DNA from: Anderseniella sp.
Lineage (GTDB): Bacteria; Pseudomonadota; Alphaproteobacteria; Rhizobiales; Aestuariivirgaceae
Length of the DNA stretch: 64,000 nt
Reading direction: 5' to 3'
NCBI GenBank assembly: GCA_030626025.1
Contig: DAOUPT010000015.1
Span: 1 to 64,000, forward strand
Made by a program: the position numbers and the translations under genes. A model generated the notes under the pieces. That model was not told where the DNA came from. It worked only from the letters and a program-made list of their open reading frames with translations, and searched no databases. Shown here piece after piece: positions 13,532 through 59,279 of this stretch (within the stretch, counting starts at the first letter, position 1; the number at the start of each line of letters is the position of its first letter).

Positions 13532-13532
13532 T

Positions 13533-34683: not shown

Positions 34684-34742
34684 AAATTGTGCAATTTGAA
34701 AGTCAACAATCTGGATTAAATCCGGTACCAAGGGAGGACAAA

Positions 34743-35846: not shown

Positions 35847-35866
35847 GCTATTGTCAAATAGTAAAA

Positions 35867-35905: not shown

Positions 35906-35934
35906 ACCTGTTTATGTGGTGTTGGGAGGATTAG

Positions 35935-36513: not shown

Positions 36514-36567
36514 CGGGTTCTAAAACCTGACAACTTCACCCAATGTTATTTTAATTGAGAGACGAGA

Positions 36568-37932: not shown

Positions 37933-37955
37933 TCGATCATCGGAAACCTGACGTT

Positions 37956-39287: not shown

Positions 39288-39304
39288 ACAAAGGAGAAAA
39301 TACA

Positions 39305-39505
39305 ATGCTTCCCAAACTCAATAAATTAATTGTCAGCCTGATTGCCACAGCTCTTTTATTTACCTTTATCCTGGGTCTGGCTGGCAGTATTTCGACCGGG
39401 TTTGCCGGTTTCTGGGGCGGCTTGCCATTCTGGGTAATCGCGCTGTCGGTACTTGCAATGGCGGGATATGATTTTTGGGATGAAACCCTCAGGAAGAAAA
39501 AGTAG
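39305..39505 (+). CDS. Small membrane protein, two helices
   Basis: 66 residues with two hydrophobic helices (residues ~9-29 and ~38-55) and a basic C-terminus (LRKKK). A good AAAGGAG ribosome site lies upstream of the ATG, and the stop abuts the next start directly (TAGATG). It is well placed to be translated with its neighbours. Family not recognised. Confidence 0.65.
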   Translation: MLPKLNKLIVSLIATALLFTFILGLAGSISTGFAGFWGGLPFWVIALSVLAMAGYDFWDETLRKKK

Positions 39506-40468
39506 ATGTCAGCAAAGCCGGTCCTTTGGATCACCCGCAAACTTTCAGACGCGACCCTTGAGAGGGCCGGAAAAAACTATGACGTTATTGTGGACTTAAA
39601 TGATGGTCTGCATTCATCACAAGAAATCGTCGCAATGAGTTCAAAGGTGGATGCCATTTTGCCTTGTCATTCTGAAATCTTTTCAGAGTCTGTGGCTGAG
39701 CAGCTTGATCAACGAGTCAAAATCATCGCCAATCATTCAGTTGGTGTTGATCATTGCAATCTGGACGCCTTGCAAAAGCGGGGCATAGTGGTAACGAACA
39801 CACCCGATGTCCTGTCAGATGCCACCGCAGAAATTGCAATGTTATTGATGCTGGGTGCTGCCCGGCGCGCGGTTGAGGGCGACAGGTTGGTTCGCACCGG
39901 CCAATGGGACTTTTGGAGTCCATCATTTATGGTGGGTAAACAGCTGACCGGCCATCGCCTTGCTATTGTCGGCATGGGTAGGGTTGGACAGGTCATGGCA
40001 AAGCGCGCCCGCGGGTTTGACATGGAAATTCATTATTATAACCGGAGCAGGCTCGAACCGACGCTTGAGCAGGGCGCAATATATCATGAAACAATCGATG
40101 ATCTTTTGCCGGTTGCAGATTTTTTGTCATTGCACTGTCCTGCAACCCCGCAAACAACCGGTTTTATGAACAGTGAACGCTTTGGGCAATTACCCGATGG
40201 TGCGGTTCTGGTCAACACTGCACGCGGCGCTCTGGTTGATGAGGCAGCGCTTTTGGACGCGTTGAAATCAGGCAAACTTTATGCCGCCGGTCTGGATTGT
40301 TTTGCCAACGAACCGGGCGGAAACCCCGCCTTTGCCGACTATGAAAATGTATTCATGCTGCCGCACATTGGTAGCGCGACAGGACAAACCCGTGATGCCA
40401 TGGGCTTTCGCGCACTAGACAATCTGGATGCCTTTTTTGCCGGCGAAACACCACAAGACATGCTGTAA
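39506..40468 (+). CDS. D-2-hydroxyacid dehydrogenase (GyaR/hydroxypyruvate reductase type)
   Basis: 320 residues. NAD(P) site GMGRVGQVMAKRARGFD; catalytic Arg in NTARGALVDE, Glu in FANEPGGNP, His in LPHIGSAT, so the active site is intact. It would reduce a glyoxylate- or hydroxypyruvate-like 2-oxo acid or oxidise the hydroxy acid. Last plus-strand gene of the TRAP/amidase operon. Confidence 0.9.
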   Translation: MSAKPVLWITRKLSDATLERAGKNYDVIVDLNDGLHSSQEIVAMSSKVDAILPCHSEIFSESVAEQLDQRVKIIANHSVGVDHCNLDALQKRGIVVTNTPDVLSDATAEIAMLLMLGAARRAVEGDRLVRTGQWDFWSPSFMVGKQLTGHRLAIVGMGRVGQVMAKRARGFDMEIHYYNRSRLEPTLEQGAIYHETIDDLLPVADFLSLHCPATPQTTGFMNSERFGQLPDGAVLVNTARGALVDEAALLDALKSGKLYAAGLDCFANEPGGNPAFADYENVFMLPHIGSATGQTRDAMGFRALDNLDAFFAGETPQDML

Positions 40469-40630: not shown

Positions 40631-41185
40631 CTACGCCTTTACTGCAGTCATAAACCTGTCCCGGATTACCACGGGATCCATTATTATGACCGGCACTTTG
40701 ATATTGCCGGATTTACATTTACTGACAATGATCGTCATCTTGTCGCCCTCCAGGGCACTCTTTAACACAGCGCCAGTTTCTTCTGCCTGACACTCGATGA
40801 CGTTTTCGCATCCACAAGCCAGTGCGACTGCTGTCAGCGAAGTTTTTTTGCCGGCATAGGTCGGTTGATCGCCGGTTGAGCCATAACTTCCGTTATCGAT
40901 AATCAAAAGAATGAAGTTATCAGCACAATTATTTGCAATTGTAGATAGCGTACCAAAATTGGTCAAAACCGAACCATCGCCATCAATTGCTATGACTTTT
41001 TTGTCTTGCGCCAAGGCAAGCCCAAGTCCGATTGAAGAAGATAGTCCCATTGTGCCCAACATATAGAAGTTGGTCGGTTGATCGTCTATCATATGCAATT
41101 CCTGGCTGGGCAAGCCAATGTTACACACAACCAGATGGTCGCAAAGCAGAGGTGCTATATCGCGTAGTATCTCGGATCTGATCAT
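40631..41185 (-). CDS. ThDP-dependent decarboxylase beta subunit, sulfopyruvate type
   Basis: About 184 residues from the ATG at 41185, which follows the alpha-subunit stop by one base; the frame is open to 41212. The thiamin diphosphate motif GDGSVLTNFGTL...DNGSYGSTG is intact. Split alpha/beta decarboxylases of this type act on sulfopyruvate (ComDE) or phosphonopyruvate. The neighbouring HpsN-like dehydrogenase and taurine-type importer favour sulfopyruvate to sulfoacetaldehyde. Confidence 0.82.
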   Translation of the reverse strand: MIRSEILRDIAPLLCDHLVVCNIGLPSQELHMIDDQPTNFYMLGTMGLSSSIGLGLALAQDKKVIAIDGDGSVLTNFGTLSTIANNCADNFILLIIDNGSYGSTGDQPTYAGKKTSLTAVALACGCENVIECQAEETGAVLKSALEGDKMTIIVSKCKSGNIKVPVIIMDPVVIRDRFMTAVKA

Positions 41186-41186
41186 T

Positions 41187-41702
41187 TCAGCACTCTTTCC
41201 AGAATGAAGCATCTGTCAGAATTGCGACAGGCTTGTTGCACATGAATGTGTGTTTAAGAATTGCGTCAAGTTCATTAACATCGTCTTGATGATGAAAATG
41301 GTATGTTGGTATGTTGAACTGGGCAAGCAACGCTTTGGTGTGCACCGCCATTTCGACCTGACAGGCAACCGGTTCACCCAGTTCACCGCGATAGCTGATC
41401 AGCATGGGCAAGGGCATTCTATAAAACTGTATCAGCGTCGCCAGGGTATTGATCGTCACCCCGATGGCAGTGTTTTGCATAATGATCGCCGGGCGCTTGC
41501 CGCCCATAAAAGCACCCGCACAAAGGCCCATACCTTCATCCTCCTTATTCGAGGGAATATGAAATATTTCCGGGCAAGCCTCTATCGTATCGATCACTCC
41601 GGCCAGTTGCTTGCAAGGCACAGAAGTTACAAATTCAATCTTGTTGGCAACAAGATCAGAAACAATTTCTTCATTCACAGACATAAGGAACCATCCATCC
41701 AA
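41187..41702 (-). CDS. ThDP-dependent decarboxylase alpha subunit, sulfopyruvate type
   Basis: 171 residues. FVTSVPCKQLAGVID and SNKEDEGMGLCAGAFMGGKRPA, with LMQN-like IIMQNTAIG, match ComD-type sulfopyruvate decarboxylase alpha subunits; the KEDE segment provides the glutamate that activates the cofactor. It is separate from the beta subunit, as in ComD/ComE, rather than fused as in most phosphonopyruvate decarboxylases. The start could lie a few codons downstream (MSVNEEI). Confidence 0.82.
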   Translation of the reverse strand: MDGWFLMSVNEEIVSDLVANKIEFVTSVPCKQLAGVIDTIEACPEIFHIPSNKEDEGMGLCAGAFMGGKRPAIIMQNTAIGVTINTLATLIQFYRMPLPMLISYRGELGEPVACQVEMAVHTKALLAQFNIPTYHFHHQDDVNELDAILKHTFMCNKPVAILTDASFWKEC

Positions 41703-41735
41703 ATTGGAATATTTATTGATAAAACGGGCTTGAAT

Positions 41736-42950
41736 TCATCCATTTGTTGCAACTGATGTTTTGAAAATGGCCGCTTCATCAGATACAATTTCGACGATGT
41801 CCCGGCAGTCTTGTTCAGAAAACGTCAGAGGCACGCGCATGTCGCAGGTTGTTGACAACACACGAATGGTATTTGGCAATGGGTCCATTTCCCCAAGATA
41901 GTGCCAGCTGTCGTATCGGCTGGTAAAAGCCACCGGTTCTTCGCCGCCAAACCATTTGATTTCAACACCGCGCTCGGCACAGCGGGTCAGAAAATCAGGA
42001 ATTTTTTCCCGGCCTATCCCCGGCGCTTTAAACTGAATGGAAGAACCCACAAATTCTTCGTGTTGTTTGCGCTCCACCATGGTCAGGCCAGGTGCGGCAG
42101 CAAAGCCGGTTTCTAAAATACGGTATCGCACGTTCCATCGTCGAGCGTTTTCTTTAAGATCCGGTAATTGCTCGCGCAAGATAGCTGCACGCAAATTATC
42201 CATTCTGGCTGAACAATTGGGAATTTCGAGGCGGACTTTTTGAAATACCTCTTCGGGCGGGATTGCCCCATGACTTCCATAAAGCATGTAGGAGCCTGAG
42301 CCAATAACGGCACGGGCGGCATACTCAGGATTATTCGTGGTCAGGAAACCACCCTCACCAGAGTTTAAATGCTTGTAGGTTTGAGTGGAAAAACAGGCAA
42401 TATCGCCAAAGTTTCCAGAACGGGTCCCCTTCCATTTCGCCCCCATCGTATGGGCGCAATCCTCAATGAGGCAAATGTCAAACTCTTTACAAACCGCTAC
42501 AATTGTATCCATATCAGCAATATGCCCACGCATATGCGACAACAAAAAATATTTCGCGTTGCTTTGCTCAGCTTTGCTTCGCAAATCATCAATATCGGTG
42601 TGCCAGTTATCATCTATTTCCACCAAAACAGGCTGGCCGCCAACTGCGAAAATAGCGCCGGGTACCGGCGCTAAAGTATAAGCATTGGCCAACACTTTAT
42701 CGCCGGGTTTTAGTCCAGCTGCACGCAATGCAATCTGTAATGCCTGCCCCCCGGAAGCAATTGCAAGGCAATATTTTACGCCCTGCCATCGCGCAAACTC
42801 TTCCTCCAGGAGGCTTGCCTCACAAGTCTCACCACTTACCGTATTGTATCTGTGCAGGCGCCCGGTATGTAAAATTTCTGTTACGCGGGCAATCGCTGTT
42901 TCAGAAATCGCTTCTTGTTGCGTGAAGGGTCTGTTGAATCTCTTGACCAT
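41736..42950 (-). CDS. DegT/DnrJ/EryC1/StrS family aminotransferase
   Basis: 404 residues. PLP-binding lysine in STQTYKHLNSGEGG, and the family's IEDCAHTMGA and FSTQ segments are clear. It transaminates an aldehyde or ketone group; most known members act on nucleotide sugars, but the context of an HpsN-like dehydrogenase and a sulfopyruvate-type decarboxylase suggests a small acid such as sulfoacetaldehyde or sulfopyruvate. That substrate is an inference. It follows the dehydrogenase by two bases. Confidence 0.85.
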   Translation of the reverse strand: MVKRFNRPFTQQEAISETAIARVTEILHTGRLHRYNTVSGETCEASLLEEEFARWQGVKYCLAIASGGQALQIALRAAGLKPGDKVLANAYTLAPVPGAIFAVGGQPVLVEIDDNWHTDIDDLRSKAEQSNAKYFLLSHMRGHIADMDTIVAVCKEFDICLIEDCAHTMGAKWKGTRSGNFGDIACFSTQTYKHLNSGEGGFLTTNNPEYAARAVIGSGSYMLYGSHGAIPPEEVFQKVRLEIPNCSARMDNLRAAILREQLPDLKENARRWNVRYRILETGFAAAPGLTMVERKQHEEFVGSSIQFKAPGIGREKIPDFLTRCAERGVEIKWFGGEEPVAFTSRYDSWHYLGEMDPLPNTIRVLSTTCDMRVPLTFSEQDCRDIVEIVSDEAAIFKTSVATNG

Positions 42951-42952
42951 AT

Positions 42953-44260
42953 TCAGTCAACCCTTGGCTGATCGGCAACTTCGAAGTTCCAATCATTTTC
43001 CGGGAAGTATTTTTTTAACCGCCAGTCGCAGGCGCGCGCATGACCATCCATTCCTTCAAGGCGACTGATACGTGAGGCCACCGCGCTGAATTTCAGATTG
43101 GCATCTTGACTGATTTTCTGCCAGGTCAGCACTTTCAAAAACTTCATGACGTTTAGCCCGCCAGTATAGCGCGCGGCTCCTTTGGTAGGTAAAATATGGT
43201 TGGTACCTGAACATTTATCGCCGTGGGTGACGTTGGCTCCTTCGCCTAAGAATAATGAACCGTAATTTCTCAACCGCTCTTTCCACCAATCCAGATCCGC
43301 GGCAATAACCTGTAAATGTTCGCTCGCATAACGATCTGAAACTTCACACACTTTTTCACGGGTTTTGCACAAAATGATTTCGCCATGGTCGCGCCAGGCA
43401 GCTTCAATCACCTTGCGGCTGGGAAAATCAGCAATAACTTTTGGCATAATGCGATTTACAGTGTCGGCAAGTTTGCCAGACGTCGTAAAAAGCCAGACGG
43501 GTGAATCGCTGCCATGCTCGGCCTGACTGGCAAGGTCGATTGCAACGGTCATAGGGTCAGCGGTTTCATCAGCAATAATGGCGCTTTCCGTCGGGCCTGC
43601 AAATACATCAATGCCGACCTCACCGAAAAGAAGCCTCTTGGCCTCAGCGACATAGGCATTACCTGGCCCCACCAGAATATCTGCAGGTTTTGCGCCAAAC
43701 AAACCAAAGGCCATGGTTGCAATCGCCTGCACCCCGCCCATTTCCAGTATCATGTCGGCACCGGCCAGATCCATGGCAAAAGCAACGTGGGGAGAGATAG
43801 CTTCTCCGCGTGGTGGAGAGGCGGCAACCACAAATGGCACCCCGGCAACTTTAGCAGTGGCAATGCTCATCAGCGCCGAAGCAGCATGGGCATAACGCCC
43901 ACCAGGCACGTAGCACCCAGCACAATTAACAGGAACAATGCGCTGACCCAGACGCACACCAGGTTCAGTTTCAATGTCAAATTCTGTCAGGCTGGCCCGT
44001 TGAGCTTGCGCAAATCGTTTGATTTGTGTGTGGGCGAAGCCAATATCGGCTTTTTCCTGTTCAGTAACCTGTGAGATCAGCCGCTGTTTTTTCTCTTTAG
44101 ACAAAACGAAGGACTTATCCCAACCGTCCAGAGATAGGGCGTATTCCATAACGGCAGCTTCGCCTTGTGAACGAATGCGCGATATCATCGCTTCTACGCC
44201 ATCACGGATTTTTCTATCCACGGTCTCATTTTCTATTTGAGAGCGTTTTATGTATTCCAT
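42953..44260 (-). CDS. Histidinol-dehydrogenase-like, HpsN-type sulfonate dehydrogenase
   Basis: 435 residues of the HisD superfamily. Zinc ligands are retained: Gln/His in SQAEHGSDS, Asp/His in HGDKCSGTNHILP, His in EGMDGHARAC. The substrate loop reads YVPGGRYAHAASALMS; the GGRY form is characteristic of the HpsN-like clade that oxidises 2,3-dihydroxypropane-1-sulfonate, not of true histidinol dehydrogenase. It is not in a histidine operon here. First gene of the four-gene minus operon. Confidence 0.82.
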   Translation of the reverse strand: MEYIKRSQIENETVDRKIRDGVEAMISRIRSQGEAAVMEYALSLDGWDKSFVLSKEKKQRLISQVTEQEKADIGFAHTQIKRFAQAQRASLTEFDIETEPGVRLGQRIVPVNCAGCYVPGGRYAHAASALMSIATAKVAGVPFVVAASPPRGEAISPHVAFAMDLAGADMILEMGGVQAIATMAFGLFGAKPADILVGPGNAYVAEAKRLLFGEVGIDVFAGPTESAIIADETADPMTVAIDLASQAEHGSDSPVWLFTTSGKLADTVNRIMPKVIADFPSRKVIEAAWRDHGEIILCKTREKVCEVSDRYASEHLQVIAADLDWWKERLRNYGSLFLGEGANVTHGDKCSGTNHILPTKGAARYTGGLNVMKFLKVLTWQKISQDANLKFSAVASRISRLEGMDGHARACDWRLKKYFPENDWNFEVADQPRVD

Positions 44261-45682: not shown

Positions 45683-46705
45683 ATGAAATCTTTAAAAACC
45701 TTGCTTTGCAGTGCAAGTGCAGCTGTATTGCTTGCTGCAAGCGCTACGATCGCCACTGTTGCAACCACAACAGCAGCCAGCGCTGAAGATTTGACCGTTG
45801 CGTATTTTCTGGAATGGCCAACACCAAATCAATTCGCTCAGGCTAAAAAAATCTATGCAGAAAAACTTGGTGTATCCATTAAATGGGTTTCATTTGATGC
45901 TGGAACCGCAATGTCAGCAGCCATGGCTTCCGGTGATGTTCAGATATCATTTTCACAAGGTATTCCACCATTTGTGGTTGCTGCTTCAGCCGGTCAGGAC
46001 CTTCAGATCGTTGATGTTGCCGTATCCTATTCAGAAAATGACAATTGTGTCGTGCGTACCAGCCTGGAAATTGACAAAACCAATGTGAAGGAACTGGAAG
46101 GCAAGCAAGTGGGTGTTCCTCTTGGCACGGCCGCCCATTACGGCTTTTTGAAACAGATGGATCATTTTGGTGTCAACGTTTCAACCATGAAGGTCGTTGA
46201 TATGGCACCGCCAGACGGTGCAGCAGCATTTGCATCTGGCAATCTGGACATGGTCTGCGGTTGGGGCGGTGCCCTGCGCCGGATGAAAGAACATGGTAAT
46301 GTGCTGCTGACCGGTGCAGAAAAAGAAAAACTTGGCATTCAGGTTTTTGACGCCACCACTGTTTCGACCCAGTGGGCAAAGGAAAATGCCGAGCTATTGG
46401 CAAAATTCCTGAAGGTTACCGCCGATATGAATGCCAAATTTGCCGCTGGTGATTCAGGTGAAATGCTGTCGGTTATCGCAAAGGCAGCCGGTATGAAAGA
46501 AAAGGCCACAAAAGAAACGTTGGACGGTTTTGCATTCCCAACGCTTGAACAGCAACTCAGCGCAAAATGGCTGGGCGGCGGTACGCAGAAATTCCTGAAA
46601 GAAGTCGGGGATTTCTTTGTTAAACAGGGTACCATTCCCAAAGCCCGCGACAGCTATGAGAGTGCTGTTGATGCCAGCTATCTCAAGGCTGCATCAAAAA
46701 TGTAG
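45683..46705 (+). CDS. Taurine/sulfonate-type ABC substrate-binding protein
   Basis: 340 residues. A signal peptide with Ala-Thr-rich core ends at AASAED. The body (YFLEWPTPNQFAQAKKIY, SFDAGTAMSAAMASGDV, GVPLGTAAHYGF, VDMAPPDGAAAFASGNLD) resembles TauA. The ATG at 45683 follows GAGGAGAGG, a strong ribosome site. Its location next to the sulfopyruvate-type genes supports a sulfonate ligand; this is context, not proof. Confidence 0.88.
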   Translation: MKSLKTLLCSASAAVLLAASATIATVATTTAASAEDLTVAYFLEWPTPNQFAQAKKIYAEKLGVSIKWVSFDAGTAMSAAMASGDVQISFSQGIPPFVVAASAGQDLQIVDVAVSYSENDNCVVRTSLEIDKTNVKELEGKQVGVPLGTAAHYGFLKQMDHFGVNVSTMKVVDMAPPDGAAAFASGNLDMVCGWGGALRRMKEHGNVLLTGAEKEKLGIQVFDATTVSTQWAKENAELLAKFLKVTADMNAKFAAGDSGEMLSVIAKAAGMKEKATKETLDGFAFPTLEQQLSAKWLGGGTQKFLKEVGDFFVKQGTIPKARDSYESAVDASYLKAASKM

Positions 46706-46732
46706 CCTTTTGTCTGATCTTAAGCAAAAATA

Positions 46733-46766
46733 CGCACGGTCCGTGAGTGGTATTACGGACCGTGCG
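46733..46766 (+). terminator. Strong intercistronic hairpin after the ABC binding-protein gene
   Basis: CGCACGGTCCGT and ACGGACCGTGCG form a 12-bp perfect stem with a 10-base loop, 27 bases past the binding-protein stop, and no clear T-run. As in the TRAP operon, it probably favours binding-protein mRNA over the membrane and ATPase subunits. Confidence 0.75.
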
Positions 46767-46815
46767 ATGTTTAAGTAAATTCGGGAAGCAGTGCTAATAT
46801 TTTTGGGAGAGCGTA

Positions 46816-47628
46816 TTGTCTGAAAACAAACCATCCAGCTTGCGCGTTGATCAGATTTCGATGACGTTCGAATTGCCAGATGGCAATTCCATTGAGGCTT
46901 TGAAAAATGTCTCTCTCAATCTTGAAGAGGGCGAAATTTTATCGGTTTTAGGACCTTCGGGCTGCGGTAAAACCACCCTTTTGAATATTATTGCAGGTTT
47001 CCTTGCCCCCACCAGCGGACAAGTGATCCTCAACGGCAACCAGGTGAAAGGCCCCGGCCCTGAACGCGGCATGGTGTTTCAACAAGGCGCTTTGTTTGAA
47101 TGGATGAGCGTTCGAAAAAACATTGGTTTTGGTCCCGCCATGAAGGGTGTGCCCGCCGCACGGATCAAAGAAACCGTAGATGAGTTGCTGGAAATTGTCG
47201 GGCTGCACGATTATGGAGAAAAGGCGGTTTATGAACTGTCCGGCGGCATGCAGCAGCGTGTCGCTCTGGCCAGATGTCTGGCCAATGACCCTGATGTTAT
47301 ATTGATGGATGAACCACTTGGCGCTCTTGACGCCCTGACCCGGGAAAAGATGCAAGGACTGGTTCTCAAATTATGGAAAGAAACCGGCAAAACCATTATT
47401 TTGATCACCCACGCGGTGGAAGAGGCTTTGCTGCTTGGTGAACGCCTTTTGGTTATGGCCCCCAGACCCGGTCATATCCATAAGGAATACCGTTTGCCAT
47501 TTGCCAATCTGGGAGTTGATTCTGATTTACGATCGGTCAAGAAACATAAAGACTTTGGCCCCAAGCGCGAAGAGATCCTTGCGATGATCTGGGAAATGGA
47601 AGAAGACATAATGGGAAGGAAGGAATAA
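46816..47628 (+). CDS. Taurine-type ABC transporter ATPase
   Basis: 270 residues. Walker A GPSGCGKTT, signature LSGGMQQR, Walker B VILMDEPLGALD, switch histidine LITHAVEEA. The start is a TTG at 46816 with GGGAGAG upstream; the first ATG in frame would cut into the N-terminal strand. Four bases precede the permease gene, so the two are coupled. Confidence 0.9.
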   Translation: MSENKPSSLRVDQISMTFELPDGNSIEALKNVSLNLEEGEILSVLGPSGCGKTTLLNIIAGFLAPTSGQVILNGNQVKGPGPERGMVFQQGALFEWMSVRKNIGFGPAMKGVPAARIKETVDELLEIVGLHDYGEKAVYELSGGMQQRVALARCLANDPDVILMDEPLGALDALTREKMQGLVLKLWKETGKTIILITHAVEEALLLGERLLVMAPRPGHIHKEYRLPFANLGVDSDLRSVKKHKDFGPKREEILAMIWEMEEDIMGRKE

Positions 47629-47632
47629 CACT

Positions 47633-48904
47633 ATGTTGATCTTGATAATCTACATCTCAATATTTGTTCTCGCCTATGTAGCCTATAAAGCGATTGCCGG
47701 TTTTACAGTGTCAAAAACTGGCTTTAATGCGCGCAAAACCGTGACCTTTGGCGATGAAAGTTCGGTGAAATCGAACCGGGCCGCATCCATTATTTCCGTT
47801 ATCTCCATTTTCCTGATCTGGGGCGCATTTACCGGGTCAAAGATTACCCCGTTGCATGTGCCCGGTCCATTCGTTGGTGATACCTCTTTTTCATACACCG
47901 CAACCAATGAGCAAAACCTCACGAGCCAGGCCAGGGTCCATATTCGGGTAGGACTGATTGGTCAGGACTTTCAAAAGCCGGAAATATCCGACAACAACCA
48001 ATCCGGATTTGCCAAGGATGACACATTGAAAGTCGGTGCCTGGCGCAGCGCTCTGATCCGTGTGCAGAACAATGATGAAGGTGGTAAGGTCAAAGGCTAT
48101 CGCGTTACCGCTATTGACGGAAATCCAATTGCGCCCAAACAGTCCGTTGAAGTTGCAGATGGCGTTGTCAACATGACGAAAAAGGGCAGTTTGTCGTTTG
48201 TTCCAGACAAGGGTTGGCAGATGGAGCCGATATGGCTTCCAGCTCCTGAATCGGTTGTCTCGCGCCTGATTGAAATTTCCATTGATGGCTATCAAAACGT
48301 AACACTTTTAGAGAACCTGGGCTGGTCGCTTTTCCGCGTTATCATGGGATTTACCTTTGGCAGTCTGGTTGGCATCCCGCTCGGCTATGCAATGGGATTG
48401 AACGGCTGGTTCCGGGGTTGGTTTGATCCGATTGTTGAATTTATGCGCCCAGTCCCTCCACTGGCGCTTATTCCGCTGGTTATCATCTGGTTCGGTATTT
48501 GGGAGCAGGGAAAAATCAGCCTGCTGTTTCTCGCTGCCTTGTGGATCATGACCATTTCCGCCCGTGCCGGCGTATCAGGCGTCAACATAACCAAGGTCCA
48601 TGCCGCCTATTCACTGGGCGCGTCGAAATTTCAGATACTGACCCACGTCATTGTGCCAAACTCCCTGCCGGAAATTTTCACCGGAGCCAGAGTGGCCATG
48701 GGCGTTTGCTGGGGTACAGTTGTAGCGGCCGAACTGGTGGCGGCTGAAAAAGGTGCAGGAAAAATGATCATTGCCGCTTCGAAATTCCAGCAAACCGACA
48801 TTGTCATCATGGGGATCATTCTGATCGGCGTAATTGGATTTGGTATCGATATTCTGATGCGGGTGGCAGAACAAATTCTGGTTCCCTGGAAAGGAAAAGG
48901 ATAA
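47633..48904 (+). CDS. Taurine-type ABC permease with extra N-terminal extracytoplasmic domain
   Basis: 423 residues, about 160 more than TauC. Two hydrophobic segments (residues 1-20 and about 50-67) come first, then about 130 hydrophilic residues (70-200) that look beta-rich and would sit outside the membrane. The standard permease core begins near residue 225 and has the coupling loop AAYSLGASKFQILTHVIVP. The extension is unusual; it might contact the binding protein or sense substrate. Confidence 0.85.
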   Translation: MLILIIYISIFVLAYVAYKAIAGFTVSKTGFNARKTVTFGDESSVKSNRAASIISVISIFLIWGAFTGSKITPLHVPGPFVGDTSFSYTATNEQNLTSQARVHIRVGLIGQDFQKPEISDNNQSGFAKDDTLKVGAWRSALIRVQNNDEGGKVKGYRVTAIDGNPIAPKQSVEVADGVVNMTKKGSLSFVPDKGWQMEPIWLPAPESVVSRLIEISIDGYQNVTLLENLGWSLFRVIMGFTFGSLVGIPLGYAMGLNGWFRGWFDPIVEFMRPVPPLALIPLVIIWFGIWEQGKISLLFLAALWIMTISARAGVSGVNITKVHAAYSLGASKFQILTHVIVPNSLPEIFTGARVAMGVCWGTVVAAELVAAEKGAGKMIIAASKFQQTDIVIMGIILIGVIGFGIDILMRVAEQILVPWKGKG

Positions 48905-51791: not shown

Positions 51792-51975
51792 TTATTTTGT
51801 TTTCTCAAACAGCGATGCGTTTTTGTCTCGCAGAGTATTCTTTTGAACTTTGCCCATGGCATTTCGGGGAAGTTCATCGAGAAATAAAACCTGTTCCAGG
51901 CGCGCCGAGGAAGAATAATCAACGGTAGGTAGGGTAGTCGTGGCGGTTTCCCCAAACCGTCCCTCCACGCCGCGC
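51792..51975 (-). pseudogene. Acyl-CoA ligase C-terminal remnant
   Basis: The minus-strand frame without a start reads LEQVLFLDELPRNAMGKVQ and then KNTLRDKN, ending with TAA at 51792-51794. LPRN-x-MGKVQK is the C-terminal A10-type motif of malonyl-CoA ligase-like AMP-binding enzymes, whose lysine is catalytic. Only about 60 codons remain; a TGA closes the frame upstream near 51976. It is the fossil end of a lost gene. Confidence 0.75.
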
Positions 51976-52130
51976 CATCAGCACAGTGCTGACACTTGTG
52001 ATGCTACACAAAATTCAATCTTCAGCAATTGATTGGAACCCGATGCGGACATTTGCAAAAAGCTTCTTGGCATCAGTTTTGCAAAGAAAAGCCTTGTACC
52101 GGGGAAAATCTTTAACATAAGAGGTACGAT
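51962..52130. other. Region before the dioxygenase gene
   Basis: About 170 bases between the ligase remnant and the dioxygenase start. No gene is visible; the AAGAGG at 52118-52123 is the ribosome site for the dioxygenase. A promoter for that gene must lie here but cannot be named. Confidence 0.35.
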
Positions 52131-52826
52131 ATGGCGTTTAATACTGATCTTGGAAAACACCGGAAAAAACTGGAGCGGAACGGATATCTCCATTTGGAAA
52201 AAGTATTGTCGAATGACTTTATCCAATCACTGAATTCTTGCGGTTCGCAAATTATTGCCAGTGAGTTGGACGAGATTGCCGAATGGCATATCCCGGGCAA
52301 AAAACGGCAGTATTTATATGATTTTTCCACGCAAAGTTTTTTCGACGCGTTCCGTGAGGGTCTGTCGGGGATTATCGGCAAGCTAGCTGAGGAAATTATC
52401 ATCAGCGAACGGCATATCAAGGTCTATCTGACCGAAGCTGCCGACTTTCCCGTGCCACATAAAGACCGGCACGCTGCAGAATTTACCATCGGATTTCCCA
52501 TATACATTCCACAAGACTCGCGGGTGTGTTTCTTCCCCTTTATGTCCCGAAACGAGAATACCGAGCAGCGGGCCGTCTATGCTGAGATGCCGGATGACAC
52601 CAAGATGGAACGTTTTTACGCCGATGATCGCATCGTAAAAATCAAGGGCACTGTCGGCGACATGTTTATCTTCCACGGCTCGACCGTTTTCCATGAACGG
52701 ATCATGCCAGCAGGATGCATGATCCTTTATATCAAGGTAAATACAGCGCGCCAGGATCCGCTGGGAGAGCATGCCAGCATGATGGAAGACTTCAACAAGC
52801 GGTCAGAGGTATTGGAAGTCGCCTAA
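52131..52826 (+). CDS. PhyH-like Fe(II)/2-oxoglutarate dioxygenase
   Basis: 231 residues. The fold and spacing resemble phytanoyl-CoA dioxygenase-type enzymes: HKD at residues 110-112 gives the first His-x-Asp of an iron triad, and His188 in STVFHER the distal histidine. The assignment is by pattern, with no stronger family mark. It is convergent with the flippase gene and is the plus-strand member of the ATP-grasp set; it may hydroxylate the product. Confidence 0.6.
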   Translation: MAFNTDLGKHRKKLERNGYLHLEKVLSNDFIQSLNSCGSQIIASELDEIAEWHIPGKKRQYLYDFSTQSFFDAFREGLSGIIGKLAEEIIISERHIKVYLTEAADFPVPHKDRHAAEFTIGFPIYIPQDSRVCFFPFMSRNENTEQRAVYAEMPDDTKMERFYADDRIVKIKGTVGDMFIFHGSTVFHERIMPAGCMILYIKVNTARQDPLGEHASMMEDFNKRSEVLEVA

Positions 52827-52927
52827 CAGTGGCCCTCGGACATTCTCACACTATGCCGGAACGGGAAGGCCTTGCCTTCCCGTTTCTCGTTGTGCGCTTG
52901 TTGGCATTATGCCTGATCGGAAAAACA

Positions 52928-54289
52928 CTACGCGAAGATGATGCTGGTGTTGAGATTGAATTTCTTCTTGGCAAGTACGGCCAGCCAGATTGACCAAACA
53001 GCCGATACGATCAGAACTGTCACAGCAGCACCGGGCAAACCGAGCCACATGATCAGTACAAAATTGCCAAGCACAAGCAGAATCATACAAACTGCAAACA
53101 CTGGCAGGCATGCCCTTTCTTGACCGCCAAGTGCGAGAACCTGAGCTGCCGGACCTGCAATGGCCCGGACCACTATTGAGAACATCAATATGACCAAAGA
53201 TGTAAAGCCGGCCACAAATTCGTGCCCAAACAAGCCGAGCAATTCACGTCCGAACATTATGACCGCGATGGCGGCGGCAATGCTGCCAGCCACGGCCGGC
53301 GCGTTAGCCCGGGCCATTACTTTGTGTATCTGGCTATTATCGCGGTTGTGCAGTGCATCGGCGATATCACGTTGAATCATCTGGTGGAGAACCTGGATCC
53401 CAAAAGCAACAAACAATGATATCTTGAGACAAACGCCGAAAATTCCCGTTTGCGCATCACTTAAAAACAGTCGGGATATAACGATATCCACATCAGCAAA
53501 AACGCTGATGAAAAGGGCTATGAGCATCAGCGGTGCGGCGCGACGGCGCCACACCGAAGTTGATTCATTGGCGGTGTTTTCTGAATTACGACCTGAATGA
53601 ACAGTTCGGTTTTTCTTAATTGCCACCTTACGCATTTGCCATAGAGCAAGGGCCGTGGCGATAACGGCATGGCCGGCGAGGATTATTTTAATATCAAAAT
53701 TTTCCCAAGTGAGCCATATCGTGACAACAAATAACAACAGTAATAATGGCCTGATAAAAAGGTCTGGTAGAAACCCGAGCTCAAAGCGTTTTTGAGCATT
53801 GGCAAGCGAACCATTAAGGCGCAGCAAGGCAAAAGCGGGCAAAGTCAACGCGGAAAAGAACAAGCTTTGCTGAATGCCATTTGCTGGAAACGGCGCCAGC
53901 CAGATAAACAGGAGCAACAGGCAAATAAGCAAGCTGGATACTATCAACGTATCAATGCGGGCGCGGGCCATAAAAACAGCCAACAGATTGGACCTGTTTT
54001 CACTGGCAGCCTGAGCTGCAATTCGGGGCACCAGCATCGGATAACCCAACGTCCCGACAACGGCAAGAACTGCCGCAAGACCGGTTGCAACAAAAAACAA
54101 CCCGATCTCGTGCGCATCGAGCAGCACCGCAAGAACGATCTGTGTAAGAATAGCAAATCCGGCACCAAAAACCCGAGCAACGACAACAAGACTAACCGAC
54201 TTCAGCAGCAAAATGCGTCCTAGTGGGTTGCCTGCGTGTCGCGTCGACAAATTATTTTTTTGAGAGAGATGGGTGGTGTTTTCGGTCAT
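52928..54289 (-). CDS. Polysaccharide-type flippase / MATE-like exporter
   Basis: 453 residues with about 12-14 membrane helices and the look of Wzx-type MOP flippases (VVARVFGAGFAILTQIVLAVL at the start, a long basic loop of about residues 215-240). It starts seven bases after the Ldh-like gene stop, on the same minus transcript, so it is a good candidate exporter of the pathway product. No other polysaccharide genes surround it. Confidence 0.8.
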   Translation of the reverse strand: MTENTTHLSQKNNLSTRHAGNPLGRILLLKSVSLVVVARVFGAGFAILTQIVLAVLLDAHEIGLFFVATGLAAVLAVVGTLGYPMLVPRIAAQAASENRSNLLAVFMARARIDTLIVSSLLICLLLLFIWLAPFPANGIQQSLFFSALTLPAFALLRLNGSLANAQKRFELGFLPDLFIRPLLLLLFVVTIWLTWENFDIKIILAGHAVIATALALWQMRKVAIKKNRTVHSGRNSENTANESTSVWRRRAAPLMLIALFISVFADVDIVISRLFLSDAQTGIFGVCLKISLFVAFGIQVLHQMIQRDIADALHNRDNSQIHKVMARANAPAVAGSIAAAIAVIMFGRELLGLFGHEFVAGFTSLVILMFSIVVRAIAGPAAQVLALGGQERACLPVFAVCMILLVLGNFVLIMWLGLPGAAVTVLIVSAVWSIWLAVLAKKKFNLNTSIIFA

Positions 54290-54295
54290 TGGTGA

Positions 54296-55363
54296 TCAAG
54301 CATCCTGCAACGCTGGTGCCAAATTTTGGGTGATACCCATTTGCGCACACAATTTACTAACAACGCCAAGCGTGTCTTTACCAAGTTTTATACCGGCACT
54401 GAGATTGTTCTTGTAGTTTTGCCAGCGTATCTCGCCAGGCAGCAGCACCTTCCCATCCTGGCTCGATGCTTTCACGAGTCCTGTCAAATACTCAAGCCGG
54501 TCATAGAAAAGTTCAAGCTCCATAAATCGGAAAATATCAAGTACGATCATAAAATGACCATTGTCTCCAGGCTGGGCGACATCTTTGTACATTGATGCCA
54601 CGCCTTTTGAAACCCCGGCGCCGGTAAGAACACCGGCAAGAATTTCTACCATCAGCGACAAACCGTACCCCTTGGCCCCGGCAGCCGGCAAAAGGGCGCC
54701 TTTACCAATCGATGCTGGATCAGTGATAGGTTTTCCGTTGGCGTCTACCGCCATTCCCTCTGGCAATGGCTTTTTCCTTGCTGCATGCTCGCGCACGGTT
54801 GAACCGGCAAGAGCGCTTGTTGCCATGTCAAACATTAAGCTTTCACCGTTTCGAAGCGGTGCCCCGAAAGCGAACGGGTTGGTGCCAAGTATAGGTGCCA
54901 GGCCATTATGTGCCGTTACTTTCGGGAATGAATTGCTCATGACGAGACCTATCATTCCTTTTTCCGCAGCTTTGTGGACAAAATAAGCACCAGTGCCGAA
55001 AAAATTGCTGTTGCGCACTCCGACAATCCCAACCCCGGTTGATTGTGCAAAGCTTATGGCACGTTCAATGGCAAGGTTTGCCGCATACTGACCAAACCCC
55101 GCATCAGCATCAAGAATAGCGCTTCCTGGTGAACACTCGACAAAACGTGGTACACAGGGACACTTTATCCCGCCGTGCTTTACTCGTTTTAAAAAAACCG
55201 GCAAACGCAGAAGGCCAAAATTTTCTCTGCCCACCAACTCGCTCCACACCAGATTGTTGGCAACTTCACCAGCCTGAGTCTTGTCTACACCGCCCTTCAT
55301 CAGGATTGCCAAACAAACTTCGTGCAGTTTGCGGTGATCGATGCGTGTTGTGTCTTTCATCAT
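54296..55363 (-). CDS. Ldh/malate dehydrogenase type-2 family protein, altered active site
   Basis: 355 residues of the NAD(P)-dependent Ldh family (ComC, AllD, YbiC relatives). The usual SHGxxR reads ENFGLLR (Phe49 instead of His), and the usual NSNHFG reads NSNFFG (Phe121), so both conserved active-site histidines are replaced; Arg53 remains. GAKGYGLSLMVEILAG, the later cofactor region, is normal. Either the chemistry has changed or it has a non-catalytic role. Overlaps the upstream ATP-grasp gene by four bases. Confidence 0.82.
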   Translation of the reverse strand: MMKDTTRIDHRKLHEVCLAILMKGGVDKTQAGEVANNLVWSELVGRENFGLLRLPVFLKRVKHGGIKCPCVPRFVECSPGSAILDADAGFGQYAANLAIERAISFAQSTGVGIVGVRNSNFFGTGAYFVHKAAEKGMIGLVMSNSFPKVTAHNGLAPILGTNPFAFGAPLRNGESLMFDMATSALAGSTVREHAARKKPLPEGMAVDANGKPITDPASIGKGALLPAAGAKGYGLSLMVEILAGVLTGAGVSKGVASMYKDVAQPGDNGHFMIVLDIFRFMELELFYDRLEYLTGLVKASSQDGKVLLPGEIRWQNYKNNLSAGIKLGKDTLGVVSKLCAQMGITQNLAPALQDA

Positions 55364-56586
55364 CTGTAACCGAGCGCTTTTTTAAACAGACTGTTGGCCG
55401 CGCCGTAATACGGTTTGCGGTCAGCCGAGTCGATCAAAGGACTAATCATGCGGTGCGCACGCAACTCGCCCAGCCAATCGGATAAAGTTATCTTCCCCAT
55501 ACCTCTTAGCTGCATCATGGCAAGAAAATCTTTTATCGGGTACCAGAGACGCAAATCATTTTCACAATCGGAAAATACCGGAATTTCTTGGCCTGTCAGT
55601 TGGCAATAAACAATCAGATCAATCGGAATCCCGGCACGGACAGCCAGTTCTTGAGCCGCAGTAAAACGGGCGTTGACTTCCATGATTTTTAGCTGCCCAT
55701 CACGCGTGTCCCGCTTGAACTCGATATTGCCCAACCCGCGAAACCCAGTTTTTTTGAAAAACTTGATGCCCTGCTCCGCCGTCTCGGGAAGCCATTGTGT
55801 GGCATGGTAAGTTGCTCCGCCGCTGTTTACCGGAAAACGCCGAATTACCCGTTTGGTGAAATTAAAGAGGAACCGACCATCGTCATCTACGTAGGTGTAG
55901 TAACTGGTCAGCAGAGTATCGGGTCCCGGAATTTTTTCTGTAACCGTTACATCAAACCCCTTGTCATGTGCGAGGCGAATTTTTTCCTTTAGTTCGTCAA
56001 TTCCCGTCTCGGCAACCAGAAATTTTTCACCGAAAACCTTGGCGAATTTGAATGTATTTAATGGTTTGACGATTACCGGAAACTGACAATCTGTAAAACG
56101 ACCATCAAGTTTATCACCGCGTTCCACTGGCCAGTATTTTGGCGTGGCGACATCTGCCGCATTCGCCATTTCCAACGTTTCCCGCTTGTCAAGCAAAGCC
56201 AATCTTTGCTGCTTGGTTCCACCATCAAAAATAAAACGGCGTCTCAGCGTTTCTTCATTCTCTGCCAAAAAAGCAATTGATGCGTCACAGCATGGCAATA
56301 TCACACGCCGGTCATTGATTAATGGCTTTGTGCCTAGCAACAATTTTCGCCAGTAATGCTCAGGCTTGACATCTTTTGGCACACAATAGCGTGTTTTACA
56401 GTATTTCGAATACATGCCCCAACAATCAGCAGGGCCGCTGACGCTCACAGAAATTCCAGTCCGTGCAAGACTTCTGGTCAGCGACAAGGAGTTCTCTTTA
56501 CCGCCCAGAATCAGGACAGGGATTGTTGTGTCGATTAATTGCGAACCAAATTGGCCTGATGCCCTTTTATCATATTCTCTTTTCAC
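55360..56586 (-). CDS. ATP-grasp ligase, first of two
   Basis: 408 residues. A pre-ATP-grasp region (PVLILGGKENSLSLTRSLARTG) is followed by the ATP-grasp core: the phosphate-loop lysine in FPVIVKPLN, and the metal-binding end FRGLGNIEFKRD and IMEVNARFTAAQEL. It forms an amide-type bond via an acyl phosphate; both acceptor and acid are unknown. The C-terminal ~90 residues are a separate tail. It overlaps the Ldh-like gene by four bases. Confidence 0.85.
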   Translation of the reverse strand: MKREYDKRASGQFGSQLIDTTIPVLILGGKENSLSLTRSLARTGISVSVSGPADCWGMYSKYCKTRYCVPKDVKPEHYWRKLLLGTKPLINDRRVILPCCDASIAFLAENEETLRRRFIFDGGTKQQRLALLDKRETLEMANAADVATPKYWPVERGDKLDGRFTDCQFPVIVKPLNTFKFAKVFGEKFLVAETGIDELKEKIRLAHDKGFDVTVTEKIPGPDTLLTSYYTYVDDDGRFLFNFTKRVIRRFPVNSGGATYHATQWLPETAEQGIKFFKKTGFRGLGNIEFKRDTRDGQLKIMEVNARFTAAQELAVRAGIPIDLIVYCQLTGQEIPVFSDCENDLRLWYPIKDFLAMMQLRGMGKITLSDWLGELRAHRMISPLIDSADRKPYYGAANSLFKKALGYR

Positions 56587-56599
56587 TATTCTAGCCTCT

Positions 56600-57757
56600 C
56601 TATGCTTCTGTAGTTTTGATTTTTTGGTTTTGCTGGCGCTGCCAGTGGTCAGAAATTGACACTGTTTCGCCCTTCCTCAAGTGCATAACGCCTTGCTTTT
56701 CCTTGAACATATAATCAAGGACCAACTCAGCGACAGGCACGCCCGCGCTTGCGTCATTCACAAGGTAATGGTGGTGGATTCCCGGCGTCGTGTTGACTTC
56801 GCCGAAGGTACCATTTGATCCTTCAAGCGGCTTGGATATGTCTTTGCAAATCACATCCAGACCGGCAAATTTAACCCCGAAATCACGAACCAGGTTTTCA
56901 CCGGCCTGGACTGTTTCAGGATGAACCATGTCGCGAACGGAGAAATTCTTCAGGCTGCAGTTCTCATTAACAGCCCGCTTGAGTGCAATGACCTGGCCTG
57001 CTTTGAGCCGGGAGCCGGGGCGTAACCCCAACTGCCACAACCTGTTTTGACAATCGCGGTCTATTTTCAGTGGACTGAGCGCTATGACCGGATCACCCGA
57101 CAATCGTTTTTCATTTTCGAGTAACACAAGTTTGCGGATGGTACTGCGCCCGTCGCCGATAATAACAGGTGGGTCACGTCTGACAGCGTCGATAAACTTT
57201 CCATCAAGATACAACAGACGATATGAGTGCCCTTCAAGCTGTTCTTCAACCAGCAATTCACTGCCGTACCGGGCAGCATAGCGAAATGCCTTTCGCAATG
57301 CCTTCAGCGAATTAACACCTGTTGTTACACCGCGCCCTCCACCTGTCCCACTTGTCGGCTTGACAACAACTGGCCCATTTTGGGACGTGAAGAACGCCTC
57401 ACATGCTGAAAGGTTGTCGAGTGAAAACTGCCTGTGCTTTGGAACCGAATATCCGTTTCCCTCTAGCAATTGGTACACCAGCGCCTTGTTACCCATAATA
57501 TCCAGCGTCAGCTGATCATCAAGCATCACGTTCGATTGCCTGACAAATGTCGTTAGACCATTACGTGAAATTCCAGCAAAGCCAAAACCTCGGTCCTTGT
57601 ATTCGGCGCCGATGTTTTGAGCGGCCTGCATCCACAATTTTTTAAAGTATGCATCGCGCAGTTGCCTGAATTTAAGCAACTGTATCAGTCCACGGACATC
57701 AAGATAAAAACCTGCCCGGTAGACGAGGCGCTGCAATTGGTTTGCAACTAATCCCAT
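56600..57757 (-). CDS. Cyanophycin-synthetase-like ATP-grasp ligase
   Basis: 385 residues. The ATP-grasp elements VVVKPTSGTGGGRGVTTGV, DPPVIIGDGRSTIRKLV, FAGLDVICKDISKPL and GEVNTTPGIHHH closely follow the ATP-grasp half of cyanophycin synthetase, but there is no Mur-ligase half. Free-standing versions make short peptides or amides. The second ligase in the operon suggests two sequential couplings. Substrates are unknown; arginine-metabolising genes nearby make an amino-acid substrate plausible. Confidence 0.85.
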   Translation of the reverse strand: MGLVANQLQRLVYRAGFYLDVRGLIQLLKFRQLRDAYFKKLWMQAAQNIGAEYKDRGFGFAGISRNGLTTFVRQSNVMLDDQLTLDIMGNKALVYQLLEGNGYSVPKHRQFSLDNLSACEAFFTSQNGPVVVKPTSGTGGGRGVTTGVNSLKALRKAFRYAARYGSELLVEEQLEGHSYRLLYLDGKFIDAVRRDPPVIIGDGRSTIRKLVLLENEKRLSGDPVIALSPLKIDRDCQNRLWQLGLRPGSRLKAGQVIALKRAVNENCSLKNFSVRDMVHPETVQAGENLVRDFGVKFAGLDVICKDISKPLEGSNGTFGEVNTTPGIHHHYLVNDASAGVPVAELVLDYMFKEKQGVMHLRKGETVSISDHWQRQQNQKIKTTEA

Positions 57758-57787
57758 CTTGTATAAACCTTTCTGATTATTTGCGAC

Positions 57788-58552
57788 TTACTCGAACAGA
57801 CAGCCATCGGTCTGAAGTTGCTGGTCCACCCAGTCGTTGGAAAAAATCCCGCGCTTAACATTTCGAACGTATTCTTCCATACGCGCATGGTGGGACTTTA
57901 ATCGCATCGCTGCGGTTGCCGCAAATTCCTTTGGGATAACAACAACGCCGCTGCTGTCTGCAGCAATAACATCACCGGCATTTACGACGATACCGCCACA
58001 ACTGATGGGAAAATTCAATTCGCCGGGACCGCGATGTAGCGGGCCGAATGAGGTAATGCCGCGTGCGTATATGGGCAGCCCGGTTTCACAAATACCGTCG
58101 ATATCTCGGATGAGTCCGTCGATAACAAAGCCGGCGATGCCACGATGTAATGCCTTGTTGGCGATAAGATCGCCAAAAACCGCGTTGCGCTGACTACCGC
58201 TTGTGTCGACAACCACAACGTCGCCAGGTTCAGCCAGATCCAGCGCTTTGTGTAACATAAGGTTGTCACCTGGAAAAACCTTCACCGTAATCGCCGGACC
58301 AACAAGTGGCGTGTGATTGGTCTGGCTGGTTATGCTGTGATCCATTGTGTACATCCGATTTAGCAGGTCGGAAATGTCCGCCGTTTCGAACGATCTGAAA
58401 TGGTCGACAACTTTATGTGACGGTCTTTCAATCTTGGAGCAAACCCGAAACCCGGGACCAGACGTAATATCTGCAGATTTAGGCTTCCGGTCACCAACGG
58501 ATTGAGTGACTTTTGAATTTGAATTCGAATTTCTTTTAGCAATAGTTGACAT
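57788..58552 (-). CDS. RraA-like / HMG-CHA aldolase family protein
   Basis: 254 residues. The RraA/aldolase fold is recognisable (FETADISDLLNRM, GPAITVKVFPGDNLMLH, VVDTSGSQRNAVFGDLIANKA, GFVIDGLIRDIDGI, ADSSGVVVIP). The GD-LIA and RD segments hold the metal and pyruvate ligands of the aldolase members, so an enzymatic role is more likely than RNase regulation. About 40 low-complexity residues (NSNSNSK) precede the fold. Likely first gene of the operon. Confidence 0.82.
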   Translation of the reverse strand: MSTIAKRNSNSNSKVTQSVGDRKPKSADITSGPGFRVCSKIERPSHKVVDHFRSFETADISDLLNRMYTMDHSITSQTNHTPLVGPAITVKVFPGDNLMLHKALDLAEPGDVVVVDTSGSQRNAVFGDLIANKALHRGIAGFVIDGLIRDIDGICETGLPIYARGITSFGPLHRGPGELNFPISCGGIVVNAGDVIAADSSGVVVIPKEFAATAAMRLKSHHARMEEYVRNVKRGIFSNDWVDQQLQTDGCLFE

Positions 58553-58656
58553 GGGTTTACCCTTTCGTATATCGCCCCCATAAACCAGCTCGCAATTTGC
58601 GTGCCAGTTTCATCATCAATCTTGATTTGTGTGCTTTTGTATCACCGGTAACGACG
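58553..58656. other. Region between the RraA-like gene and the IS remnant
   Basis: About 100 bases upstream of the minus-strand operon. Its promoter should be here but no clear -10/-35 pair can be named. The IS6-family remnant begins at 58657. Confidence 0.3.
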
Positions 58657-59279
58657 TTGTCAGGTTAACAAGCCCAGGCCATACGAAATCTAGTTTGACT
58701 TCTACTCAGGCAGAAACAGTCACCAATTGCCAAACACTCATCGCTTCGTCGCGAAACTGGCGTAATGTTTTCCGGGAGATCAGATGGCGTTGGATGTTGA
58801 AGATGTTGTAAATACTGGCGTGGATGGGTAGAAATCTTTGTGCTGATTTCGCGGATTTAAACCGCTCCATTCGTCGTTCACGTTGCTGAACTGGGAGATG
58901 TGAATTCTCAGCCGGATTATTCTTTCTGCCACCGAATTCACGAATCTTAGATAGGTCCAATGCCCTTAGAGCAGCTCCATACGAGGGTAGTTTATTGGTA
59001 ACGATTGCATTTGGAACATAGCCCTGTTTCTTCAGCAACTTTCGAACATAGGCCTGACCAAATTTCAATGCCCAGCAACGTACTGTTTCCTATGAAACGT
59101 CAATGCAACGTTCAGCCAATCAATCTTCAACATTTCGGTAACCGAGTGGAAAACAAAAATACAGCCAGATTGCATCTTAAATGATCACAGAAGGAAACCG
59201 ATAGCGTTTGTATGAAACTTTGCTCATCTGCCAAGCCTAAAACGTATTGATAAATCTGGCTAGCAAGTTAACCTGACAA
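58657..59279 (-). mobile_element. Dead IS6-family insertion element
   Basis: The 13-mer TTGTCAGGTTAAC at 58657-58669 recurs in inverted orientation at 59267-59279, and the match extends inward (AAGC / TTGC). Between them lies a transposase pseudogene. At about 620 bases it is shorter than a normal IS6 member (about 700-850), because an internal piece is missing. No target duplication can be confirmed by eye. Confidence 0.75.
58706..59227 (-). pseudogene. IS6-family transposase pseudogene
   Basis: Reading from ATG 59227: MSKVSYKRYRFPSVII, a stop (TAA), DAIWLYFCFPLGYRNVED, a stop (TGA), LAERCIDVS, a stop (TAG), ETVRCWALKFGQAY, then KKQGYVPNAIVTNKLPSYG and on to the end at 58706. Three in-frame stops interrupt one frame, and after KFGQAY the sequence jumps to RKLLKKQG, so the part with the first two catalytic Asp residues is deleted. 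The C-terminal part is open and intact. Confidence 0.85.

Follow-up and report, generated by a model that had tools for sequence, protein, structure and literature searches.

The window analyzed here, a stretch of 64,000 nucleotides from contig DAOUPT010000015.1 of Anderseniella sp., harbors a cassette of six intact open reading frames at 52131-58552. Four of them, coding for an RraA-like protein, two ATP-grasp ligases (ATP-grasp-1 and ATP-grasp-2), and an Ldh_2-like oxidoreductase, form a core that is a real conserved unit beyond chance, because the gene order recurs in distant phyla. The remaining two code for a PhyH-like dioxygenase and a putative flippase of the MOP type. The cassette is a real, conserved, and horizontally moving unit, probably a biosynthetic one. 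As judged from the sequences, and with a probability of about 45%, an acid-supply pair and two amide-forming ligases would make a building block for a product that is flipped across the membrane and is probably glycan-linked.

Conservation and horizontal transfer of the gene set

Five of the six genes run on the minus strand as one tight operon, with gaps of 30, 13, -4, and 6 bases in the direction from the RraA-like gene to the flippase gene. A preliminary description, made from the sequence alone, had already proposed this operon and had placed the six genes between the tail of an acyl-CoA ligase gene (51792-51920) and a dead IS6 element that ends at 59279. All of these features were confirmed at their positions by the intact frames, the translation of the tail, a partial DDE domain, and inverted repeats.

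Homologous loci were collected by scanning 84,980 species genomes with two peptide patterns of ATP-grasp-1, which carry no information on neighboring genes. The 52 named loci are divided into class I (n = 41) and class II (n = 11), the latter from Nitrospirota, Zixibacteria, Desulfobacteraceae, Gemmatimonadota, Acidiferrobacteraceae, and Chromatiales. Class I is a working label and not one clade; its planctomycete and ignavibacterial rows stand nearer to class II in the tree. One locus (L095) was placed in class II by shared neighbors and its ComA gene, not by the tree. Counted on the same strand within 3.5 kb of ATP-grasp-1, the four core genes are not scattered but stand together in 25/41 class I loci (RraA 32/41, ATP-grasp-2 32/41, Ldh_2 27/41). 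Among the 19 class I loci with long flanks, 16 contain the full core (RraA 18, ATP-grasp-2 16, Ldh_2 17). The core order is broken in L050, L057, L069, and L094, where those partners that are present lie no farther than about 9 kb away. A search of 297 genomes of the order found ATP-grasp-1 (identity of 47% or higher) in 13 genomes besides the window's, nine of which carry all four core genes in short stretches around it. The exceptions are two loci at contig ends (L007, L014), one with ATP-grasp-2 about 8 kb away (L010), and one in which RraA was not matched (L005).

The full core is found in Alpha- and Gammaproteobacteria as well as in one metagenome-assembled genome (MAG) each of Myxococcales and Ignavibacteria, and partial sets occur in KSB1 and Planctomycetes. 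Named isolates with the cassette belong to Henriciella, Maritimibacter, Psychromarinibacter, and Profundibacterium. The two genes outside the core are less regular: a PhyH homolog lies within 9 kb in 11/41 class I loci and a flippase of the window's type in 9/41. No description of this gene set was found among the listed titles and abstract beginnings of open-licence papers, and non-open print may hold one.

The window's genome contains one match to ATP-grasp-1. The protein groups with rows from three Hyphomicrobiales MAGs that stand outside the window's own family (60-68% identity) and with L048, which lies on a contig labeled "Gammaproteobacteria". Within the window's own family, a copy (E 1e-40) is present in 0/3 genus-mates and 6/65 other members, and those copies are 44-48% identical. 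Because the copies within the family are patchy and divergent, the cassette of the window looks horizontally acquired. The horizontal spread implied by the earlier claim of a transferable pathway is supported. In plasmid searches with both ligases every match fell below 60% identity. The contigs of L048 and L066 come from the same "Gammaproteobacteria" bin and carry two different copies of the cassette, of which L048 groups inside the Hyphomicrobiales; a mixed bin and a move of the cassette across classes are both possible explanations.

Active sites and folds of the encoded proteins

The RraA-like protein (57788-58552, minus strand) matches the RraA-like family at 3e-46 and reaches 236.6 bits with NCBIfam NF004850 (cut-off 231). 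It carries what appears to be a class II pyruvate aldolase/decarboxylase site, as N97, H101, D128, R149, and D150 align with Asn71, His75, Asp102, Arg123, and Asp124 of the HMG/CHA aldolase from P. putida (3noj). These residues are kept in 37/37, 37/37, 36/37, 37/37, and 37/37 readable rows, respectively; a separate list of conserved RraA positions leaves out two short rows. According to PMC5065237, Arg-123 of the aldolase is essential to the stabilization of the pyruvate enolate, and Asp-124 and Glu-199 bind the metal. The cassette protein differs from the aldolase described there in that it sits in a ligase operon and in that the Glu199 column varies. RraA-like proteins are not always aldolases; PMC8563752 describes one that acts as a dehydratase/decarboxylase.

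The Ldh_2-like protein (54296-55363, minus strand) matches Pfam Ldh_2 at 3.3e-98 with 329 bits (cut-off 38.8 bits) and shows full-length homology to sulfolactate, malate, and ureidoglycolate dehydrogenases (ComC 2x06, AllD 1xrh/4fjs, 1v9n, 1vbi). According to PMC3527362, His44 and His116 of AllD are invariant in the family and one or the other is catalytic, and the R48A and H116A variants are inactive. The solved relatives whose alignments were compared have a histidine at both positions, whereas the window's protein has F49 and F121 there. Both histidine equivalents are absent in 24/34 cassette members and the His116 equivalent in 31/34. The family's carboxylate arginine (AllD Arg48, here R53) is kept in 34/34, and the NAD(P)H-site residues corresponding to AllD Thr156, Pro158, Asp174, Lys224, and Gly306 (T161, P163, D179, K231, and G310 in the window) are kept in 34, 34, 34, 33, and 34 of 34. 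Further differences from the described members of the family are Lys148, which is near-invariant (31/34), and the invariant Trp40 and Arg46. The loss of histidines is not universal, because three gammaproteobacterial members (L067, L072, L074) keep both; two of these stand in TauD-type loci. Lys148 need not substitute for the histidines, since it is also found in two of these three. In L057 (Afifella pfennigii), two cassette-type Ldh_2 genes stand in tandem at 11098-13638, one of which has Asn at the Lys148 position.

ATP-grasp-1 (56600-57757, minus strand) has 385 amino acids and consists of the ATP-grasp half only, with the core ATP-grasp residues kept. It aligns over about 270-280 residues with the ATP-grasp half of CphA (7lgm, 7lg5) and with Ngg, from which it differs in having no Mur half, its own clade, and its own motifs. 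The latter, GTGGGRGVTTG and NTTPGxHHH, are nearly invariant in 10 aligned rows. The scores against TIGR02068 (cyanophycin synthetase, 163 bits, cut-off 850) and TIGR03103 (N-acetylglutaminylglutamine synthetase, 104.6 bits, cut-off 569) are low. In the main tree, 53 ATP-grasp-1 rows form one clade with a support of 100/99, set against six Ngg-type and six cyanophycin-synthetase-type references, one GshF, and two very long-branched rows; long branches are possibly misplaced, according to a warning of the tree program. An earlier tree, built with 14 Ngg-type rows plus one further row, recovers this clade as well. Both trees leave out the short rows L043, L051, and L090 and the fragment L095, and the Ngg and cyanophycin labels of the outgroup were deduced from match range and frame length, only L105 and L106 being annotated in their records. 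For ATP-grasp-1, which is the ligase that the trees cover, a grouping with the known enzymes tested is thus not seen.

ATP-grasp-2 (55360-56586, minus strand) gives weak and mostly short sequence-profile matches, and its model (pLDDT, the predicted local distance difference test, 93.4) takes on a PRK12767/PylC/PurK-like fold. The listed structural matches (Z 21.7-25.5 over 275-354 residues) include PurK, PylC, the L-amino acid ligase BL00235, and biotin carboxylases at close Z values, which do not point to any one substrate. PylC, PurK, and BL00235 share the fold but are only 10-18% identical to ATP-grasp-2.

The PhyH-like protein (52131-52826, plus strand) and the flippase (52928-54289, minus strand) have no Pfam match at 0.01. 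For the former, an HxD...H triad (H110, D112, H188) is invariant in 12/12 aligned relatives. Its model (pLDDT 90.9) confirms a predicted Fe(II)/2-oxoglutarate (2OG) dioxygenase with a double-stranded β-helix fold, with Fe/2OG oxygenases on top of the 50 listed structural matches (Z 13.8-15.7). Two loci outside the PhyH group, L067 and L074, have TauD-type dioxygenases directly before RraA. The flippase is weakly assigned as a MOP-type flippase or exporter, with homologs near the cassette in other loci and weak WZX_like and MATE matches.

Exchangeable acid supply and the proposed product

In class II, neither RraA nor Ldh_2 was found beside the cassette in any of the 11 loci, and a cassette-type Ldh_2 anywhere in the genome (1e-20) was found in 0/11. 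A ComA-family gene is present in 9/11 class II genomes, compared to 2/32 class I genomes and 2/14 controls, and lies inside the fetched locus in six class II loci. In L084, the order is ComA, a ComB-like gene, and an ATP-grasp gene, followed further on by a lactate-racemase-N-like (LarA-N-like) gene. The planctomycetotal locus L094 has D-2-hydroxyacid dehydrogenase genes near RraA and ATP-grasp-2. As ComA-like genes replace RraA and Ldh_2 in class II, and with the dehydrogenases of L094, the ligase pair appears to be the constant part and the acid supply the variable part. From these exchanges we infer that the exchangeable genes serve to produce or modify a 2-oxo or 2-hydroxy acid. The ComA- and ComB-like genes of class II and the cassette Ldh_2, which belongs to the ComC family, resemble the enzymes that open the synthesis of coenzyme M (ComA, ComB, ComC). 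No coenzyme M pathway is claimed; the class II scores fall below the equivalog cut-offs, and ComA is present in only 2/32 class I genomes. The Nitrospira-type locus L084 (614-19013) is an unusual cluster of its own and codes for a carbamoyltransferase, ComA- and ComB-like proteins, two PRK12767-type ATP-grasps, the LarA-N-like protein, ATP-grasp-1, a GT4-like protein, FemAB, a cyclase-like protein, and a Wzx-type flippase.

The proposed pathway would start with the RraA-like enzyme, using pyruvate enolate chemistry, and the altered Ldh_2, using NAD(P)H redox chemistry, which together would provide or modify a small acid of the 2-oxo or 2-hydroxy type. ATP-grasp-1 and ATP-grasp-2 would then form two amide bonds between the acid and an amine partner, which may be an amino acid, an amino sugar, or both, and the Fe/2OG dioxygenase would hydroxylate an intermediate. 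The decorated block would end up on a molecule that crosses the inner membrane via the MOP-type flippase. In the sister groups, this molecule would most likely be a sugar polymer or a glycolipid.

A glycan- or lipid-linked product is favored in the sister groups because the cassette adjoins glycosyltransferases, Wzx, Wzy, or sugar-nucleotide enzymes there. Sugar genes (GT4, GINT1-like, Wzx, Wzy, UGD, epimerase) lie within 6 kb in at least 13/41 class I loci, or at least 14 when a locus with only an Asn-synthase is included; the count of 13 is a lower bound, as the searches used our own seed proteins. Neighboring proteins were scanned against Pfam in an alphaproteobacterial set (113/153 proteins) and another set (69/76), and the counts given here cover the 25 commonest families out of 105 and 88, respectively. 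Among the alphaproteobacterial neighbors, GINT1_N ranks first (7), ahead of two ABC-transporter families (5 each), Polysacc_synt_3 (4), a GNAT family (4), and Glycos_transf_1 (3). In the other set, Glycos_transf_1 (8) leads, followed by Polysacc_synt (4), Asn_synthase (3), 2-Hacid_dh_C (3), Bac_transf (2), Wzy_C (2), and TauD (2). GINT1_N was further surveyed in 28 genomes, i.e., 27/32 class I genomes (without L062, L063, L064, L079, and L094) and G161. A single copy is found in 12/28 of them and in 0/14 controls, and in 8/12 that copy sits beside the cassette, which makes this family the strongest safeguard against coincidence among the neighbors. By chance, such adjacency would be expected in less than 1 in 100 per genome (15-20 kb in 2.6-5 Mb), which is a rough estimate and not a computed control.

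Several observations weigh against the glycan-linked building block, starting with the window's own subclade. No glycosyltransferase, Wzx, or GINT1 was found within 6 kb, by the same own-seed searches, in the nine named loci with the window's flippase or in L041 and L042; of the nine, L048 and L055 are almost flankless, and L045 and L054 end right after the flippase. Ten neighbors from this flippase group were scanned (drawn from L046, L047, L050, L053, L068, L041, and L042) and turned out to be FAD synthetase, glutamine synthetase, dehydrogenases, and the like, one being without a match and none a glycosyltransferase. In a GT2 search of nine genomes (the window's, seven in which the same flippase adjoins the core, and G205), each genome contained GT2 genes, none of them closer than 17 kb to the cassette. 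The genes searched beside the window's cassette include no sugar-polymer gene. GINT1_N aside, sugar-polymer families are no more frequent among the alphaproteobacterial neighbors than the ABC-transporter families, which account for 5 and 5 of the 113 proteins. The flippase itself scores low with NCBIfam WZX_like (0.003, 16.6 bits, cut-off 300) and with the MATE structure 4lz6 (0.037).

The acid chemistry has points against it as well. Where RraA aligns with Glu-199 of the aldolase, the residue varies (E in 13/38 at 226 and in 7/38 at 227); the metal-binding equivalent may lie elsewhere in the protein. The class II ComA-like and ComB-like proteins score 139 against an NCBIfam equivalog cut-off of 280 and 100 against 235, respectively, so that sulfolactate cannot be taken as established. 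ComA also occurs in two class I genomes (L053, L054), 5/10 class I genomes tested (KSB1, Planctomycetes) also have no cassette-type Ldh_2, and the second ATP-grasp of class II is just 26-28% identical. Finally, gene order, protein families, kept and lost active-site residues, the glycan neighbors of part of the relatives, and the ComA-like replacement in one group are observed, and it is from these that we infer substrates, step order, amide bonds, transport, and the glycan linkage of the window's own product.

For the window's subclade, a serious rival, and a possible one overall, is a soluble modified di- or tripeptide-like metabolite. The two ligases would couple amino or hydroxy acids to each other, the dioxygenase would add a hydroxyl group, and the MOP transporter would release the free product from the cell. 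In this subclade the operon ends in a transporter, sugar-polymer genes were not found nearby, and the only structural match of the transporter, a weak one, is a MATE exporter. The fold of ATP-grasp-2 is common to PylC and L-amino acid ligases, among others, and the dioxygenase model resembles the natural-product oxygenases SnoN, FtmOx1, and OkaE. However, several sister loci are polysaccharide loci, and 8/12 genomes with a GINT1-like gene have it linked to the cassette. The exported peptide-like metabolite of the preliminary description is thus partly supported: it may apply to the window's subclade, with its flippase and no sugar genes found nearby, while the sugar-polymer genes of the sister groups favor a glycan- or lipid-linked product. 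In the window's subclade, the cassette may either decorate a molecule with further genes at other places in the genome or pass its product straight out of the cell, and the data fit both.

A catabolic operon, in which the RraA and Ldh_2 homologs would break down a hydroxy acid without any part for the ligases and the transporter, is improbable. Most named relatives of RraA and Ldh_2 are indeed catabolic enzymes, ABC- and TRAP-transporter families are among the neighbors, and a sulfonate-type locus lies 8-11 kb off in the window. But the ligases are as regular as the other two genes (ATP-grasp-2 32/41, Ldh_2 27/41), and 24/34 Ldh_2 members have lost both catalytic histidines. A system for compatible solutes or storage, like those of Ngg or cyanophycin, is very improbable: CphA and Ngg types provide the closest described ligase halves for ATP-grasp-1, but the separate clade, scores far under both cut-offs, the missing Mur half, and the GTGGGRGVTTG and NTTPGxHHH stretches, which differ from the compared CphA chains, all speak against it.

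The glycan-linked building block can be taken further to a widespread, undescribed system for decorating surface glycans or glycolipids. An exchangeable acid module, either RraA with the histidine-less Ldh_2 or ComA/ComB/LarA-like enzymes leading to a sulfolactate-like acid, would feed a dedicated ATP-grasp pair, which would attach a small acidic hydroxyacyl unit to the precursor through an amide link before flipping. In this detailed form the proposal is doubtful.

Surroundings of the cassette and its meaning

Both boundary elements lie outside the cassette. On one side, a gene fossil on the minus strand (51792-51920, translation LDELPRNAMGKVQKNTLRDKNASLFEKTK up to the stop) reads LPRNAMGKVQKNTLR and continues to the stop codon; we take this to be the C-terminal motif of AMP-forming acyl-CoA ligases, an assignment made without a family search of the frame. 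On the other side, a decayed IS6-family element without assigned strand (58657-59279) contains a partial DDE domain (Pfam DDE_Tnp_IS240, 2e-12) inside perfect 13-base inverted repeats that end exactly at 59279. The window's genome holds many decayed IS6 copies, with 19 other matching pieces of 71-95% identity scattered over many contigs. The remnant is therefore weak evidence for mobility of the cassette, and a composite transposon is unsupported, with a single remnant at one edge. GC content gives no sign of transfer either, as the cassette (0.47-0.51) does not contrast with its surroundings (0.45-0.53).

The arginase and ornithine cyclodeaminase next to the cassette, previously suggested to supply or recycle its amino acid, are host backbone and not part of the pathway. 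They were matched in 0/52 named loci, and the Lrp-arginase-cyclodeaminase trio stands without the cassette in the genus-mate G383 (cyclodeaminase 83% identical) and the family-mate G358. The G383 contig stops about 1.3 kb past the cyclodeaminase, with transposase-like frames, identified by eye, directly after that gene.

Farther off, in the stretches 40634-44260 (minus strand) and 45683-48901 (plus strand), the window codes for the beta and alpha subunits of sulfopyruvate decarboxylase, both above the NCBIfam cut-offs. Genes nearby code for an aminotransferase of the DegT type, a protein like histidinol dehydrogenase, and an ABC binding protein of the taurine type, and this region, 8-11 kb from the cassette, looks like C3-sulfonate metabolism. 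Adjoining it at 34689-40465 (plus strand), an amidase and a D-2-hydroxyacid dehydrogenase follow a transporter that, by eye, looks like the TRAP type.

Conserved gene sets without an assigned product mark chemistry that annotation has missed. The cassette opens two questions to testing: the role of an Ldh_2 enzyme from which both catalytic histidines are gone, and whether pairs of ATP-grasp ligases use sulfonated acids or acids derived from pyruvate to decorate surface molecules.

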